Shown here piece after piece: positions 44,771 to 49,732 of a stretch of 64,000 bases of DNA. The stretch comes from Flavivirga eckloniae (GTDB taxonomy: Bacteria; Bacteroidota; Bacteroidia; Flavobacteriales; Flavobacteriaceae). The DNA is taken from positions 1,324,001 through 1,388,000 of the forward strand of contig NZ_CP025791.1 in assembly GCF_002886045.1 (NCBI RefSeq), in the 5' to 3' direction. A program made the position numbers and the translations under genes. Within the stretch, counting starts at the first letter, position 1, and each line of letters starts with the position of its first letter. The notes beneath the pieces were generated by a model, which searched no databases, was not told where the DNA came from, and saw only the letters and a program-made list of their open reading frames with translations.

Positions 44771-46618
44771 ATGAAATTAGAAAAGATATTAGATAAACTT
44801 GGTTCAATAGAAAAAAACTCGTTTATCAAAATAATAGACAATATCATATCTAAAAACCCAAAAAATAATAAAGAAATCGAAAAGATTTTAAGTTCTTCTG
44901 ATAAAGGTTTAAAATCGGTTGACAATCAAAACATCTCAAAAATCTTTTCCTTAACAGCAAATGAGTTTCAAGAACACATAAAATGTGAGTTTCAAGAAAT
45001 CACGTCACAATTAGATATTCTAATTGACATTATTATTCGTGACGGAAACTGCATTATGAAGCAAGATTGGTTTTCAAGGTTATATGAAAATGAAATAAAA
45101 CACATAAAAGGTAAAATTAAATCACTTAATGTAGATTTTGTAAACGATAAATCTGAATTAAGTACAACACGTAAAAGAGATTATAAAATTTACAAAGCTT
45201 GTTTGCATACAGCCTATCACAATGATATTGCAAACAATCGAGAAGCAAAAATATCATCAGATGAGCTCTCAATTATTCTAACACTTTCTAAACAACTTGG
45301 GCTTTCACAAGAAGAAGTTAAATTAATAAACTATTCAATCTTGCCAATCAAAAAAATTGATATTCAAGATGTAATAAAAGGACTTAAAAACATTGGTGTT
45401 ATTTTCTATTCCAACAAGGAAAATACAATTTACGTAGCAGACGAAATGGTTAGAATGCTTCGTAAAATCAGAGAAAAAGAAGTGGCAGAGAAGTTTTATA
45501 GAAGAACACTTAAACTCTTAAGAGAGCCTATAATAAATCAAATTGCAAGAGAGCATAACATAGACAGAAAACTACCATATTCTCAAAAAATTGAAAAAAT
45601 CATAAAAGAAGGTGTTTCTTTCACAAATTTACTTTTAGACGACATTTATAAATCAGGAAGTACATTAACCGAAAAAAAGAAGACTTTAAATGAACTTTGC
45701 GAAAAAAGTTTAAACATAAAAAACTTAAAAGGAAGTACATTAGAAGAAAAAATAAGTAGTTTAATTAGATATTTTGAAAATATTGAGCGAGACGAAAAAG
45801 TAGGAATTTCTTTAGACGGTTTTGACAAATTACTAACTGAATTAAACTTATCCTTGCCTAAATTCAACGTACAGATGAAAAATCAATTTGAATTGCAAGA
45901 CGAATTTGTTCTCAAAGCAGATTTTTTACTCGATTATAATATTAAACCAAGAGATATTTTGGATCTGCTTACAAAACAAGATATCTCTAAATTCATCAAA
46001 AACAATGGAATTAAACAACGGGGAAATGATATTTTAAATATTCTCGAACACTATAAAGATGTTGAGAATTTATATTTAGAGAATTTTGAAAATGTCGCTT
46101 ACAGAAATCTAAACTTGTTAAAAGAGAACGGAATTATAGTAAAAGAAAGTGAACTCGGAATCAAATTTGAAGATTTAACCAAAGTCATTTTTAAGGGTTT
46201 AGGGTTTAATGTTGATGACCTCTTCAAAAAGAATCTAAATACCAAAAAGGATATGATGGATATTCTGTTAAATTTAGGAAATAACGAAATTATTATCATA
46301 GAGTGTAAAACCAGCAAAGAAAGAGGTTATAATAAATTCAGTTCAGTATCGAGGCAATTAAAATCTTATCAAAATTTAGCACTAAAAAACGATTTACGAA
46401 TTGTTAAAATTCTGCTTGTTGCACCAGAATTTAGCGATGATTTTATAACGGATTGCGAAATGGATACGGAAATGAATTTATCACTTATTACAGCTTCTAC
46501 TCTATCGAATATTTCAGAGGCATTTAAAACATCAAAATATACAGAATTTCCACACGTTTTATTCCGAGATATCGTAATTAATGAGGAGCGAATTTTAAAA
46601 GCATTAAGAAAAAAATAA
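44771..46618 (+). CDS. Large orphan protein with C-terminal PD-(D/E)XK nuclease domain
   Basis: 615 residues, soluble, lysine-rich. The C-terminal 150 residues fit a PD-(D/E)XK nuclease. The aspartate of DMMDILLNLG (about 497) and the pair in IIIIECKTS (E about 511, K about 513) form the motif. SRQLKSYQ supplies a QxxxY motif as in RecB/Cas4-like members. Upstream, PRDILDLLTKQDISKFIKNN and GIKQRGNDILNIL resemble a SAP-type helix-turn-helix. The N-terminal 400 residues are mostly helical and unassigned. No methyltransferase or helicase is adjacent, so it is not a standard restriction enzyme. A defence or DNA-processing role is inference. The composition looks more AT-rich than neighbouring housekeeping genes. 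Confidence 0.8.
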   Translation: MKLEKILDKLGSIEKNSFIKIIDNIISKNPKNNKEIEKILSSSDKGLKSVDNQNISKIFSLTANEFQEHIKCEFQEITSQLDILIDIIIRDGNCIMKQDWFSRLYENEIKHIKGKIKSLNVDFVNDKSELSTTRKRDYKIYKACLHTAYHNDIANNREAKISSDELSIILTLSKQLGLSQEEVKLINYSILPIKKIDIQDVIKGLKNIGVIFYSNKENTIYVADEMVRMLRKIREKEVAEKFYRRTLKLLREPIINQIAREHNIDRKLPYSQKIEKIIKEGVSFTNLLLDDIYKSGSTLTEKKKTLNELCEKSLNIKNLKGSTLEEKISSLIRYFENIERDEKVGISLDGFDKLLTELNLSLPKFNVQMKNQFELQDEFVLKADFLLDYNIKPRDILDLLTKQDISKFIKNNGIKQRGNDILNILEHYKDVENLYLENFENVAYRNLNLLKENGIIVKESELGIKFEDLTKVIFKGLGFNVDDLFKKNLNTKKDMMDILLNLGNNEIIIIECKTSKERGYNKFSSVSRQLKSYQNLALKNDLRIVKILLVAPEFSDDFITDCEMDTEMNLSLITASTLSNISEAFKTSKYTEFPHVLFRDIVINEERILKALRKK

Positions 46619-46806: not shown

Positions 46807-47148
46807 ATGGAACTAGTAATTTTAATAATCGTCATGTTCTTAGCTATAAAATATGTTCCTAACTTCGTTGAAAGTAAAAGGAAAATAAAAAAACATAACG
46901 AAATCGAAATAGCAATGACTTCAAATGCTCAAAGGTTTGGGTATAACATAAAATCAACAATAACAAGAAGTCGAATAAATAATAGCTACAACTCATTTAA
47001 AGCAAAAATATTAAATGGTGAGAAAACAAATTTTCAAGATTTAAAAGATTTGGAAATCACAAAAAAAGAGCTGGTTGAACAAGCTAAATTAAGAGATAAA
47101 TTAATGGCTGACATTTCAGGAAGAAAAGAAGAATTCGAAGATGAATGA
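46807..47148 (+). CDS. Small membrane-anchored protein with cytosolic helical tail, unknown
   Basis: 113 residues. One N-terminal span (MELVILIIVMFLAIKYVPNF), then a charged, largely helical cytosolic part (KRKIKKHNEIEIAM ... DLKDLEITKKELVEQAKLRD). No known domain. It lies 188 bp after the PD-(D/E)XK gene on the same strand and may belong with it, but no promoter or coupling proves this. Confidence 0.6.
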   Translation: MELVILIIVMFLAIKYVPNFVESKRKIKKHNEIEIAMTSNAQRFGYNIKSTITRSRINNSYNSFKAKILNGEKTNFQDLKDLEITKKELVEQAKLRDKLMADISGRKEEFEDE

Positions 47149-47314
47149 AGTCTATGTGAAAATAAATTTCACACAAAGCGCTATGAATAATCCTAAAAAA
47201 ATGAAAAATAAAAATAATATTCTCTGATTGTAAAACAGTTCCTTTGCTAGCACTCTCTTATAACGAATGCTTAGAGCATTGTATGCACTCGACTATTCTT
47301 TCTTATCATTTAAT

Positions 47315-47530
47315 TTACAAGCTCCATAAAGTATCAATTAATAGGTATAGCCCTCCTAAAATGCTTGCAATAGCGACACCGAAACCCCTAATATCATTAA
47401 ATGTTTTTAATTTATATTTATATAGGAATACTTTACCTAGCCATAATCCAAAAACCATAAGTATAATAGATAAAGCTAAACTAATTAAAATGCTTTCATT
47501 TTCTATTATTATAATTGTTTTGTTAATCAT
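47315..47530 (-). CDS. Very small two-span membrane protein (tentative)
   Basis: 71 residues with two hydrophobic spans (ILISLALSIILMVFGLWLGK and GFGVAIASILGGLYLLIDTL) and a basic loop between them. A 96-codon frame on the opposite strand overlaps it but has a poor protein composition. The minus-strand reading is the more protein-like. Function unknown. Confidence 0.45.
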   Translation of the reverse strand: MINKTIIIIENESILISLALSIILMVFGLWLGKVFLYKYKLKTFNDIRGFGVAIASILGGLYLLIDTLWSL

Positions 47531-47606
47531 CTGAATCAGTACTCGATTCTATCTGTTTTGTGTAATAAATCTAGCCCATACAACGATCTTTCTTCTTACT
47601 AAAGTT

Positions 47607-47846
47607 TCATTCATATTCAAACTCAAAATTTAATAATTCAGAAGGCTCAATATTTAATCCTTTAGCCAATTCGAATAGCGTCACTACTTGAAGACTTATC
47701 TTTCCTTTTTCAATCTTACTAATTTGGCTATGGTCAACATCACACAACTGAGCTAATTCCCTATAACTAATGTCTTTTTCTTTTCGAATTCTAGACAAAG
47801 TTTCACCAAATGACATTAACAACCTTTTTTTAGGTATACTTTCCAT
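47607..47846 (-). CDS. XRE-family helix-turn-helix regulator (second of a tandem pair)
   Basis: 79 residues, essentially one Cro/C1-type HTH: SFGETLSRIRKEKDISYREL, then AQLCDVDHSQISKIEKGKIS and LFELAKGLNIEPSELLNF. It could start at the internal ATG of MSFGETL, 10 codons in. It is 32 bp after a paralogous XRE gene. Both proteins end in PxELxxFExY-type tails (PSELLNFEFEYE, PKELFDFEY). Likely DNA-binding dimers acting on the palindrome upstream of the pair. Confidence 0.85.
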   Translation of the reverse strand: MESIPKKRLLMSFGETLSRIRKEKDISYRELAQLCDVDHSQISKIEKGKISLQVVTLFELAKGLNIEPSELLNFEFEYE

Positions 47847-47878
47847 CTCAAATTTGTCTTAAGAGATTTTATTTATTG

Positions 47879-48106
47879 TTAATACTCAAAATCAAACAAC
47901 TCTTTGGGATGGATTTCTAAGCCTTCAGCCAAAGACAAGATTGTTTTCATAGAAGCTCCGTGCTCCCCTTTTAACACACGATATACTTGTTTCGGCTCAA
48001 TTTTGCCTATTGAGGCAACGGTCATAACATCTTTATTATACTTTTCAAGTAATGATTTTAGATGCTCTCCAAATGCTTTATAATAAGCTTTGTTTGTTTT
48101 CTTCAC
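47879..48106 (-). CDS. XRE-family helix-turn-helix regulator (first of a tandem pair)
   Basis: 75 residues: AYYKAFGEHLKSLLEKYNKD, then VMTVASIGKIEPKQVYRVLK and TILSLAEGLEIHPKELFDFEY. The recognition helix region IEPKQVYRVLKG is typical of XRE/Cro proteins. The start is a GTG; no upstream ATG is available. Transcription leftward would start near the 20-bp palindrome at 48138-48157, suggesting autoregulation. Confidence 0.8.
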   Translation of the reverse strand: MKKTNKAYYKAFGEHLKSLLEKYNKDVMTVASIGKIEPKQVYRVLKGEHGASMKTILSLAEGLEIHPKELFDFEY

Positions 48107-48137
48107 TCTGTGAAATTGTGGCTTTTTTCAAAATAAT

Positions 48138-48157
48138 AATTGTCAAATTTGACAATT
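48138..48157. promoter_or_regulatory. 20-bp perfect palindrome, probable operator of the XRE pair
   Basis: AATTGTCAAATTTGACAATT is its own reverse complement. Its right half contains the TTTG -33 box of the rightward promoter P1. On the minus strand it lies within a weaker TTG-N17-TATTTTG promoter toward the XRE genes. A bound repressor would therefore affect both directions. Confidence 0.7.
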
Positions 48158-48178
48158 CAGTAATTATTTATATATTTG
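48148..48178 (+). promoter_or_regulatory. Rightward promoter P1
   Basis: TTTG, 19 nt, TATATTTG: an exact match to the Bacteroidota consensus. The -33 box is inside the 20-bp palindrome. Confidence 0.75.
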
Positions 48179-48193
48179 TTTTAATCAGTTCTG

Positions 48194-48222
48194 TTTGTAT
48201 TGAACTGTAAGTTTTATATTTG
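48194..48222 (+). promoter_or_regulatory. Rightward promoter P2 with its own inverted repeat
   Basis: TTTG, 17 nt, TATATTTG. An inverted repeat CAGTTC-N10-GAACTG (48186-48207) encloses the -33 box. Transcription should start near 48229 and enter the hairpin element. Confidence 0.75.
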
Positions 48223-48266
48223 CGATTCTTCATATAAAAAAATTAGAAGTCATCGCTTTGAATCTC

Positions 48267-48373
48267 GTATCAGAAAACTGGTAATTTTTAAGCAACGAGA
48301 AGATAAGTAAGATGCTCACGTCTATGGACGTGGGCTCACTTATTGTTGCTCGGTATACCAGTACCTCTGATAC
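48267..48373 (+). ncRNA. 107-nt long imperfect hairpin (structured RNA candidate)
   Basis: Nested complementary segments from outside in: GTATCAGA/TCTGATAC, ACTGGTA/TACCAGT, GCAAC/GTTGC, ATAAGT/ACTTAT, GCTCACGTC/GACGTGGGC (one G-T pair), closed by the tetraloop TATG. That is 35 pairs in a single stem with small internal loops. It lies about 40 nt downstream of promoter P2. No open frame of note covers it. No known RNA family was recognised. Confidence 0.6.
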
Positions 48374-48559
48374 TATAAGTTGAATTCCACGTCTTTTTTG
48401 TGTCACTACGTTAAAGGCTATAACTCCTAGTACTGAACTTGTTCTGTACTGAACTTGCCTGTGTTAATCTCTCCTACAAATGTAGTTGAAGCATGTTTCA
48501 GTAATTCAGTATCTAGCGAGGTAATCTCGCCTGTACTAGTCAGGCGGGTTCAACTTATA
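48374..48559 (+). repeat. 186-bp inverted-repeat unit directly abutting the long hairpin
   Basis: An 11-bp perfect inverted repeat TATAAGTTGAA ... TTCAACTTATA bounds the unit. The left arm starts on the base after the preceding hairpin ends. Inside are smaller hairpins: CTACA/TGTAG, GCGAG/CTCGC and CCTG/CAGG. Two copies of TACTGAACTTG and a TTTCAGTA counterpart are also inside, as in the dispersed palindrome at 42580. Confidence 0.65.
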
Positions 48560-48598
48560 TTATACATATTACTAATAGAGAAAAACAATATTTAGTCT

Positions 48599-48952
48599 AT
48601 GAAAGTTTATACACATCCAGACAATCTCATAACACCACCCTTCTCCACTATAGCTACATTAATTATGTTATTGGATAAATCCGGGTTAACAGATGCAGTT
48701 AAAAAACATTGCAAAACTGGGTTAAAGGTTGTGCCCATTATTTATAACAATCCCGAGCATGATACCAGAAAAGATATCTTATCAAGAAAAAAATACGATG
48801 CGTTCTTTGCTTTATTTCCTGATTCTTATTTTAACGATAGAACGTTAATTACAACCAAAATAATTATAGAAAACGTAGAACTGTTTATTAAAACAAATAG
48901 CGTAGCAACAGTTGTTTGTAAAGAACAGAAAGCATCCGCTCAACTATTTTAG
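48599..48952 (+). CDS. Unknown 117-residue protein behind the hairpin element
   Basis: A soluble protein starting MKVYTHPDNLITPPFSTIAT. Mixed alpha/beta pattern (LIMLLDKSGLTDAVKKHCKT, VVPIIYNNPEH, ATVVCKEQKASAQLF). No signal peptide, no recognised domain. If transcription begins at P1/P2 the mRNA would carry a 370-nt, heavily structured leader. A terminator follows 35 bp after the stop, so the unit P1/P2-hairpins-gene-terminator looks complete. Confidence 0.65.
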   Translation: MKVYTHPDNLITPPFSTIATLIMLLDKSGLTDAVKKHCKTGLKVVPIIYNNPEHDTRKDILSRKKYDAFFALFPDSYFNDRTLITTKIIIENVELFIKTNSVATVVCKEQKASAQLF

Positions 48953-48987
48953 TTGATACGTTGAATTAATTTTTAGCTAAAAATATA

Positions 48988-49019
48988 AAAACCACATTGT
49001 TTTCACAATGTGGTTTTTT
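48988..49019 (+). terminator. Terminator, CCAC-TTG family
   Basis: Stem AAAACCACATTGT/ACAATGTGGTTTT with TTTC loop, then T run. Confidence 0.88.
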
Positions 49020-49043
49020 AAGAGTTGTTAAACAAGAATACGT

Positions 49044-49373
49044 TTACTCTGTAATACTAATAATCTTTGCGCCTTCCCAGCAAACATTAATATCGCTATC
49101 AACTAAACCATGCTTTACATTTAAAGCATAACATGTTTTAGTACCCTGCACTGTAGACGAGGTTACTTTGGCTTCACCAAGTTCGTAATACCCTAAAGGA
49201 ATTTCATCATTCGAATATCCGTATTTTTCTGCTGCTTTATCAATCGATTTGGTACTACTAATGGCAGTAATAAATCCTTGCATTTCCGGAGAAACTTCTG
49301 TGGAACTTCCACAAGAAACAAATAAACAAATAGTTAAAATTAGGCTAGAAAGTAGTAGGCTACTCTTTTTCAT
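49044..49373 (-). CDS. Small lipoprotein, unknown
   Basis: 109 residues with a lipoprotein signal (LLLSSLILTICLFVSCGSS). The mature part has two cysteines (KTCYALNVKHG, INVCWEG) that could form a disulfide in the periplasm, and a NTF2-like or DUF-type beta pattern. No family recognised. Monocistronic. Confidence 0.65.
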   Translation of the reverse strand: MKKSSLLLSSLILTICLFVSCGSSTEVSPEMQGFITAISSTKSIDKAAEKYGYSNDEIPLGYYELGEAKVTSSTVQGTKTCYALNVKHGLVDSDINVCWEGAKIISITE

Positions 49374-49732
49374 AATATAAGATTTAGGTTAAGATTATAA
49401 ATGTACTAAATAAATTGTACTTAAAAATGTTGTAAAACAAAAAAGTACGAATGTACAAACATATAGTCATTATATTAGTATGTATTCTATTTAAAAACAG
49501 TCTAAATAAATACACTAAATATGTTACGTATCACCTTGAGTACATCAACAATGCTCAGCATAAACTAAAGTCGAAAGGTTATTAAAACATTGAATTTAAG
49601 AATGTACACAATAAGCAACACTGAATTATACCCAAAATTAACTACGGCCCACCTCGAAACAATCCATTAATATTTAACGAAATAGCAAATCGGTTTTTAA
49701 CAGAGCCATTTAATTACTCATCAAGAAAGTAA
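49374..49732. other. 359-bp AT-rich gap with a possible transposase tail
   Basis: On the + strand 49505-49585 reads NKYTKYVTYHLEYINNAQHK followed by LKSKGY and a stop. This loosely resembles the C-terminus of IS3-type transposases (YINNxRxKxKLKG). No start or other domain is present. Otherwise nothing was seen. Confidence 0.25.

Follow-up and report, generated by a model that had tools for sequence, protein, structure and literature searches.

The 64,000-nt stretch of the Flavivirga eckloniae genome analysed here (the window) carries a cassette that begins on the left with two XRE-type genes on the minus strand, and continues with a palindrome, a promoter, a long structured element and a 117-aa gene followed by a terminator-like repeat (Table 1). 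The observation made in the preliminary description of this locus is confirmed: the perfect 20-bp palindrome over the -33 box, the boxes of promoter P1 and the 117-aa ORF with its terminator-like repeat all lie where they had been placed, and the long hairpin of about 107 nt starts at about position 48267 in the predicted fold. The two XRE-type ORFs had been described as paralogous, but they look to have helix-turn-helix domains of different kinds and not to be close paralogues, one ORF matching HTH_3 (2.5e-13) and the other HTH_26 (3.8e-4, just under the cut-off). An ORF of 615 aa upstream of the cassette (window 44771–46618) has no Pfam match.

Comparison with other copies of the element changed the reading of two features. 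A TATATTTG-like box is frequent some 35–53 nt upstream of the RNA core across copies, a distance similar to that of P1. The boxes of P2 and the adjoining CAGTTC/GAACTG repeat are present in the window as described, but the promoter role proposed for P2 was not upheld, since the other copies compared do not retain a TATATTTG as such immediately ahead of GCGATTC. The arms of the repeat occur at the same place in other copies with changed letters (judged by eye). The repeat probably gives the transcript a small hairpin in its 5' part, and P2 is more likely to be part of the RNA than a promoter. The start of the second unit at about 48374 and its 11-bp repeat are likewise present, but the unit, and the helix that the repeat would form, stay candidates. 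Most of the unit (48412–48560) has no other match within the window's genome.

Table 1. Features of the cassette, with positions in the window.
Feature	Position	Strand	Basis and remarks
Second XRE-type gene, 79 aa	47607–47846	-	ORF list
Proximal divergent XRE-type gene, 75 aa, GTG start	47879–48106	-	ORF list; putative leader-promoter repressor
Perfect 20-bp palindrome AATTGTCAAATTTGACAATT, over -33 box	48138–48157	.	Inverted-repeat listing; putative XRE operator
Promoter P1, TTTG (48148–48151)-N19-TATATTTG (48171–48178)	48148–48178	+	Sequence reading
CAGTTC (48186–48191)-N10-GAACTG (48202–48207)	48186–48207	+	Sequence reading
P2 boxes, spaced by N17	48194–48197, 48215–48222	+	Sequence reading
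Structured RNA core (row 1 of alignment A2)	48219–48410	+	Covariation, wobble bias
5' hairpin, 48222–48225/48253–48256 and 48228–48231/48246–48249	48222–48256	+	Covariation, wobble bias
Pseudoknot PK1, 48262–48266 with 48297–48301	48262–48301	+	Covariation
Main stem, outer, 48268–48273/48367–48372 and 48277–48283/48356–48362	48268–48372	+	Covariation, wobble bias
Main stem, inner	48292–48296/48345–48349, 48302–48307/48339–48344; apical 48314–48320/48329–48335	+	Covariation, wobble bias
PK2, alternative to apical helix, 48327–48333 with 48387–48393	48327–48393	+	Pairing tests
Match to dCas12f guide motif GCGTGGGCTCTCTTAT, 2 mismatches	48328–48343	+	Motif search
U-run (TTTTTT) directly after PK2	48394–48399	+	Sequence reading
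Second unit	48374–48559	+	Predicted fold; candidate
Inverted repeat; closing 11-bp part 48374–48384/48549–48559	48370–48384 with 48549–48563		Repeat listing
p110-family gene, 117 aa	48599–48952	+	ORF list; predicted all-helical
Terminator-like inverted repeat	48987–49018	.	Repeat listing

The 117-aa gene belongs to a family (p110, for its 110-aa proteins) that is present in all 12 genomes of the window's genus and in one of 295 other Flavobacteriales genomes, there as a broken short match. No match to p110 was found in Pfam or NCBIfam, and the structure model is all-helical, without a clear relative. At four loci of the genus (L010, L083, L013 and L018) a whole or truncated ECF sigma gene follows p110; this sigma factor is only distantly similar (25% over 57 aa) to the one that accompanies dCas12f behind other copies of the element.

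Structure of the RNA core

The predicted fold of nt 48225–48600 has an energy of -103.8 kcal/mol (z -5.1), a value that none of 100 shuffled sequences reached. An equally good fold is predicted for the minus strand, which also outdoes its shuffles, so that folding energy does not choose the strand. The pairing was examined in an alignment of 24 copies (A2), and the covariance model was likewise built from 24 copies. Forty-four pairs, including PK1, are formed in 96.4% of the cells of A2, compared with 88.0% after shuffling and 34–41% when slid. Changes on both sides of a pair are seen in 15 of the 44 pairs, in a total of 83 cells against 26.4 in shuffles and 12–24 when slid, which is more than chance would give. 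Wobble cells are strongly skewed (68 G-T versus 6 A-C), a bias that fits the plus strand only and is consistent with an RNA made from that strand. PK1 is paired in 93.3% of its cells, with changes on both sides in two of its five pairs. Judged by the compensatory changes, measured against shuffled and slid controls, and by the strand-specific wobble, the element is a structured RNA.

The strand GACGTGG (48327–48333) forms the 3' side of the apical helix but is also complementary to CCACGTC (48387–48393), which runs directly into TTTTTT. The apical helix and this second pairing (PK2) share 48329–48333 and are mutually exclusive. PK2 is paired in 97.6% of the cells of A2, compared with 39–68% when slid, and its covariation in A2 alone is weak (changes in 2/7 pairs and three cells, the level of two pairs being attained by 11 of 500 shuffles as well). 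Distant copies of the element were also compared. These comprise 48 of the 51 low-scoring loci and two others, and the covariance model matched all 50 of the distant loci searched at E 2e-5 or better. The middle strand varies widely among the 50 parsed distant copies, 48 of which have the U-run. In 40 of these 48 the copy's own PK2 strands pair better than swapped strands (mean run 8.1 versus 7.0), while in the remaining eight they are no better. The U-run is imperfect in some copies (L021, L073, L074). Two exclusive helices, one of them placed just before a U-run, may be read as an attenuator, in which PK2 would serve for termination.

Spread, gene neighbourhood and putative operators

The genome of the window holds seven copies of the element. 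A first search of relatives gave DNA matches in 20 of 60 genomes, including 12/12 of the genus, with a few of the weakest touching the promoter part only. The covariance model matched in 149 of 393 Flavobacteriales genomes (32/106 genera) and in 54 of 392 genomes of a Bacteroidota sample (25/179 genera); as these whole-genome searches scored six candidates per genome, the copy numbers are lower bounds. The exact core pattern occurs in at least 119 stretches of GTDB genomes, nearly all of them from Bacteroidota among the matches listed. Two metagenome-assembled genomes labelled Lentisphaerae and Pelotomaculum are also among the matches listed, and these may be binning errors. The pattern was found in four viral contigs and one plasmid, and a search of a phage collection gave no match. 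Consistent with the preliminary description, which recognised no described RNA family, Rfam 15 returned one tRNA for the whole window and nothing at the element, no credible match for the region 47000–49500 at E values up to 5, and none for two homologues of the element. Nowhere at the element was the gathering score of an Rfam 15 family reached.

Gene neighbourhoods were compared for 98 complete and distinct copies, a set in which the window's genus and high-scoring copies are over-represented. In 93 of the 98 the upstream gene is of XRE type, and it is divergent in all but L072; in two of the five copies without an XRE call a regulator-like ORF could be seen by eye. The first downstream gene is a SusC gene in 31 copies, p110 in 28, p110 with a sigma factor in 14, sigma-E with a nuclease-dead Cas12f in 15, a gene of a 196-aa family (p196) in seven, a response regulator in two and a sigma gene alone in one. 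The layout of XRE gene, element and one of a few kinds of downstream gene is constant, with p110 downstream in 42/98. The second XRE gene falls outside this common layout and was not seen next to L008–L010. Low scores were obtained for 51 of 123 pattern loci among the matches listed, and most of these are without a labelled XRE gene. In 22 of the 43 distant copies with a downstream ORF, the downstream start is 219–249 nt after the element start, and the genes themselves are diverse, from RteC and histidine kinase genes to those of subtilase and RibD_C proteins. At nearly all mapped loci the element precedes a gene and has the same orientation. Its place on the same strand, upstream of a gene at a constrained distance, is what would be expected of a leader; SusC start codons lie at widely varying distances, from 370 to over 1500 nt. 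No common theme that would name a signal was found among the downstream genes.

Several other observations were made on the flanking genes. Many genes beyond the XRE gene, on the left (L068–L076, L092, L150–L188), look anti-phage, and include type I methyltransferase, AbiEii, SIR2, GmrSD, Thoeris TIR and Cas1 genes. With PADLOC, 84 left genes matched 323 families and 72 right-hand genes matched 4, the control being weak. The SusC-SusD clusters behind the element in L068, L069, L070, L073 and L074 are accompanied by M16 or TlpA-type proteins and by small DUF6520-like peptides (PF20130 at 4.8e-15 for one), and are perhaps a peptide export or import system.

Palindromes scoring 10 or more were found upstream in 34 of the 98 copies and in none of 98 shuffled controls, in which single letters were shuffled. 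The palindrome sequence goes with the kind of XRE gene (read by eye over 98 rows): the window's kind, XRE1, is found with ATTGTCAAATTTGACAAT, while other kinds have quite different palindromes. Four copies of Flavivirga type whose proximal XRE gene is of the window's kind (L001, L035, L055 and L101) share one operator type with the same core, and L184 and L187 have similar TGTCA-TGACA arms. The palindrome is thus a putative operator of the proximal XRE protein and, as palindromes differ with XRE kind, many repressors would drive one leader. Of the control by both XRE proteins that had been proposed, the part concerning the proximal protein agrees with these data, while the second lies outside the common layout. 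Together, the conserved pairs, the plus-strand wobble bias, the frequent upstream XRE gene with its palindrome and the lack of an Rfam match support the main proposal of the preliminary description, namely that a structured RNA or leader, itself regulated and belonging to no described family, lies next to an XRE regulator.

Guide RNAs of the dCas12f-sigma-E systems

Fifteen of the 98 copies have the order XRE, element, sigma-E, dCas12f, and in all 15 sigma-E starts 272–316 nt after the element start. A profile of the dCas12f proteins matched 9n9c ('Nuclease-deactivated Cas12f') at 3.1e-201 over its full length, and the linked sigma factor matched 9n9q_C ('RpoE') at 5.8e-77. By these matches, the Cas12f behind the element is of the solved nuclease-dead Cas12f family. 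The PDB entries 9n9c, 9n9m, 9n9o and 9n9q represent RNA-guided transcription by dCas12f and sigma-E. The dCas12f profile (A3) was found in seven of 60 genomes, one of them with a 52-aa remnant, and had no match in the window's genome; no dCas12f was found in G000–G010 or in the searched Flavobacterium-like genomes that hold the element.

The element is not itself the guide RNA of dCas12f. That RNA has another sequence and lies on the 3' side of the dCas12f gene, where a conserved stretch ends in ATACAAC and is followed by the guide. In 19 of the 24 distinct guide RNAs found in the loci examined, the guide is the element's apical strand, of the type GCGTGGG(C/T)TC or GCGTGAGTTC. Of the other five guides, two belong to L179, which has three in total, and three to L195 (G302), which has no further guide and no element within its 4.1-kb locus. 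L179:9207–9882 (reverse strand) and L195:2612–2942 are small dCas12f guide RNA arrays with two or three members; their guides differ from one another, and some have an aim other than the element.

Nineteen distinct guide RNAs, not including those of L098/L111 and L166 and the first of L181, were scanned with wobble pairs allowed. For 14 of them the best match in the locus was the element's apical strand, preceded by G, and the element matched lies 2.1–2.8 kb upstream. Among the exceptions, L169 had its best match elsewhere, while the second guide of L181, that of L198 and the two other L179 guides had no match. For three of the 14 (L160, L163 and L175) the score was equalled by one of five shuffled guides, and the argument therefore rests on the constant place of the match. 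At the dCas12f loci the guide match lies beside a 5'-G, the TAM of this system. In G011 and G101 the 16-nt motif is exact at the guide RNA and has one mismatch at the element. In L198 (G188) the guide is of the element type while the 4.1-kb locus contains no element, a hint of action in trans. Since dCas12f is found in only seven of 60 genomes and not in the window's genome, the element is, as far as its distribution can tell, a target used by dCas12f systems and does not exist for them.

Interpretation and comparison with known systems

The reading judged rather probable is that the element is the leader RNA of an XRE-controlled promoter and acts as an attenuator-like switch on the downstream gene. 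Comparison of the copies has shown a plus-strand RNA structure with two alternative pairings, a constant position ahead of a gene in the same orientation, and putative operators that, by eye, go with the kind of XRE protein. The proximal XRE protein would repress the divergent promoter through the palindrome. When transcribed, the plus-strand leader would fold into the long pseudoknotted stem, in which the middle strand 48327–48333 would have two possible partners, the apical 5' strand and, after synthesis of the 3' strand, 48387–48393. PK2 with the U-run would then stop transcription, or make it pause, ahead of the downstream gene. In relatives with dCas12f and sigma-E, the guide RNA addresses the DNA of the element, and sigma-E could therefore start transcription inside the leader, by-passing both XRE and attenuator. 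A terminator with such a long loop would be unusual, and this counts against the leader-attenuator reading, as do the imperfect U-run of some copies, the weak covariation of PK2 within A2, the eight distant copies that do no better than swapped ones, the lack of a shared theme among the downstream genes and the wide spread of distances to SusC.

A stand-alone small RNA of about 190 nt, acting in trans and ending at the U-run, with the downstream genes mere neighbours, would explain the U-run directly after a G+C-rich helix, the presence of its own, putatively XRE-controlled promoter and the several copies per genome. Such an RNA is unlikely, however, given that at nearly every mapped locus the copy precedes a gene on the same strand, and that the distance to the start codon is narrow in about half of the distant copies (22/43) and in all 15 loci with sigma-E. 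A dispersed mobile palindrome without a function of its own, spread by some transposase, is very unlikely. The preliminary description had named scattering across the genome as a reason to abandon its proposal; the seven copies go half way towards this, and the scatter of the copies, their presence on one plasmid and four viral contigs, and the IS110-family element in the apical loop of some point the same way. Yet the layout with XRE is constant, there are few kinds of downstream gene, different genes are held at constant distance, and the pairs show compensatory changes; the IS110 element interrupts copies and does not move them. Least credence is given to a DNA site kept as the guide target of dCas12f-sigma-E, with a pairing that reflects DNA and not RNA. 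The apical strand carried by 19/24 guide RNAs and the best locus match at the upstream element after G (14/19 scored) would agree with such a site, but dCas12f is absent from many of the element-holding genomes searched, the G-T over A-C bias and PK1/PK2 fit RNA, and a shuffled guide was as good in three cases.

The leader-attenuator reading also agrees in part with known systems. As in terminator/antiterminator leaders, which include attenuators and riboswitch expression platforms, a structured RNA lies 5' of and in line with a gene, and two exclusive helices share one strand with a U-run after one of them. Unlike known attenuator leaders, the element has a long pseudoknotted body and a very long terminator loop, no common gene theme and no Rfam match, and its termination is a prediction. 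The small divergent XRE gene and the palindrome over the promoter resemble XRE-repressed divergent promoters of the C/CI-like type, which differ in that here one conserved leader stands under many unrelated XRE kinds. The likeness to dCas12f-sigma-E RNA-guided transcription lies in the 15 loci with the pair behind the element and in guides that match the element after G; that system is absent from the window's genome, however, and the element is far more widespread than dCas12f. Insertions of an IS110-family element in the apical loop (of one or more G006 copies and of three G011 copies) are reminiscent of IS110 targets, but only some copies are interrupted and IS110 is not the cause of the element. 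IS110-family transposons were seen at L063:6432–7927, L065, L066, L067, L112 and L113, with a 331-aa transposase (PF02371 at 4.6e-22). IS110 elements are themselves RNA-guided, by way of a bridge RNA, and so two guided systems meet at the same apical loop.

A wider reading is possible but doubtful: that this phylum-wide leader is a common control tag, on which XRE switches are exchanged at the 5' end and gene sets (SusCD importers, 110-aa and 196-aa proteins, sigma-E/dCas12f) at the 3' end, with a CRISPR-derived, RNA-guided sigma complex addressing the most conserved strand. If this were true, a single guide RNA could activate both the operon that encodes it and further tagged genes in the genome, by-passing repressor and attenuator. 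The regulation of many surface importers of Bacteroidota is poorly known, and a leader that is absent from Rfam 15 and present in about a third of the Flavobacteriales sampled would stand as a separate class of regulatory RNA. Such a leader would also give the solved dCas12f-sigma-E activator natural, genome-encoded targets, making the physiological role of that system directly testable.
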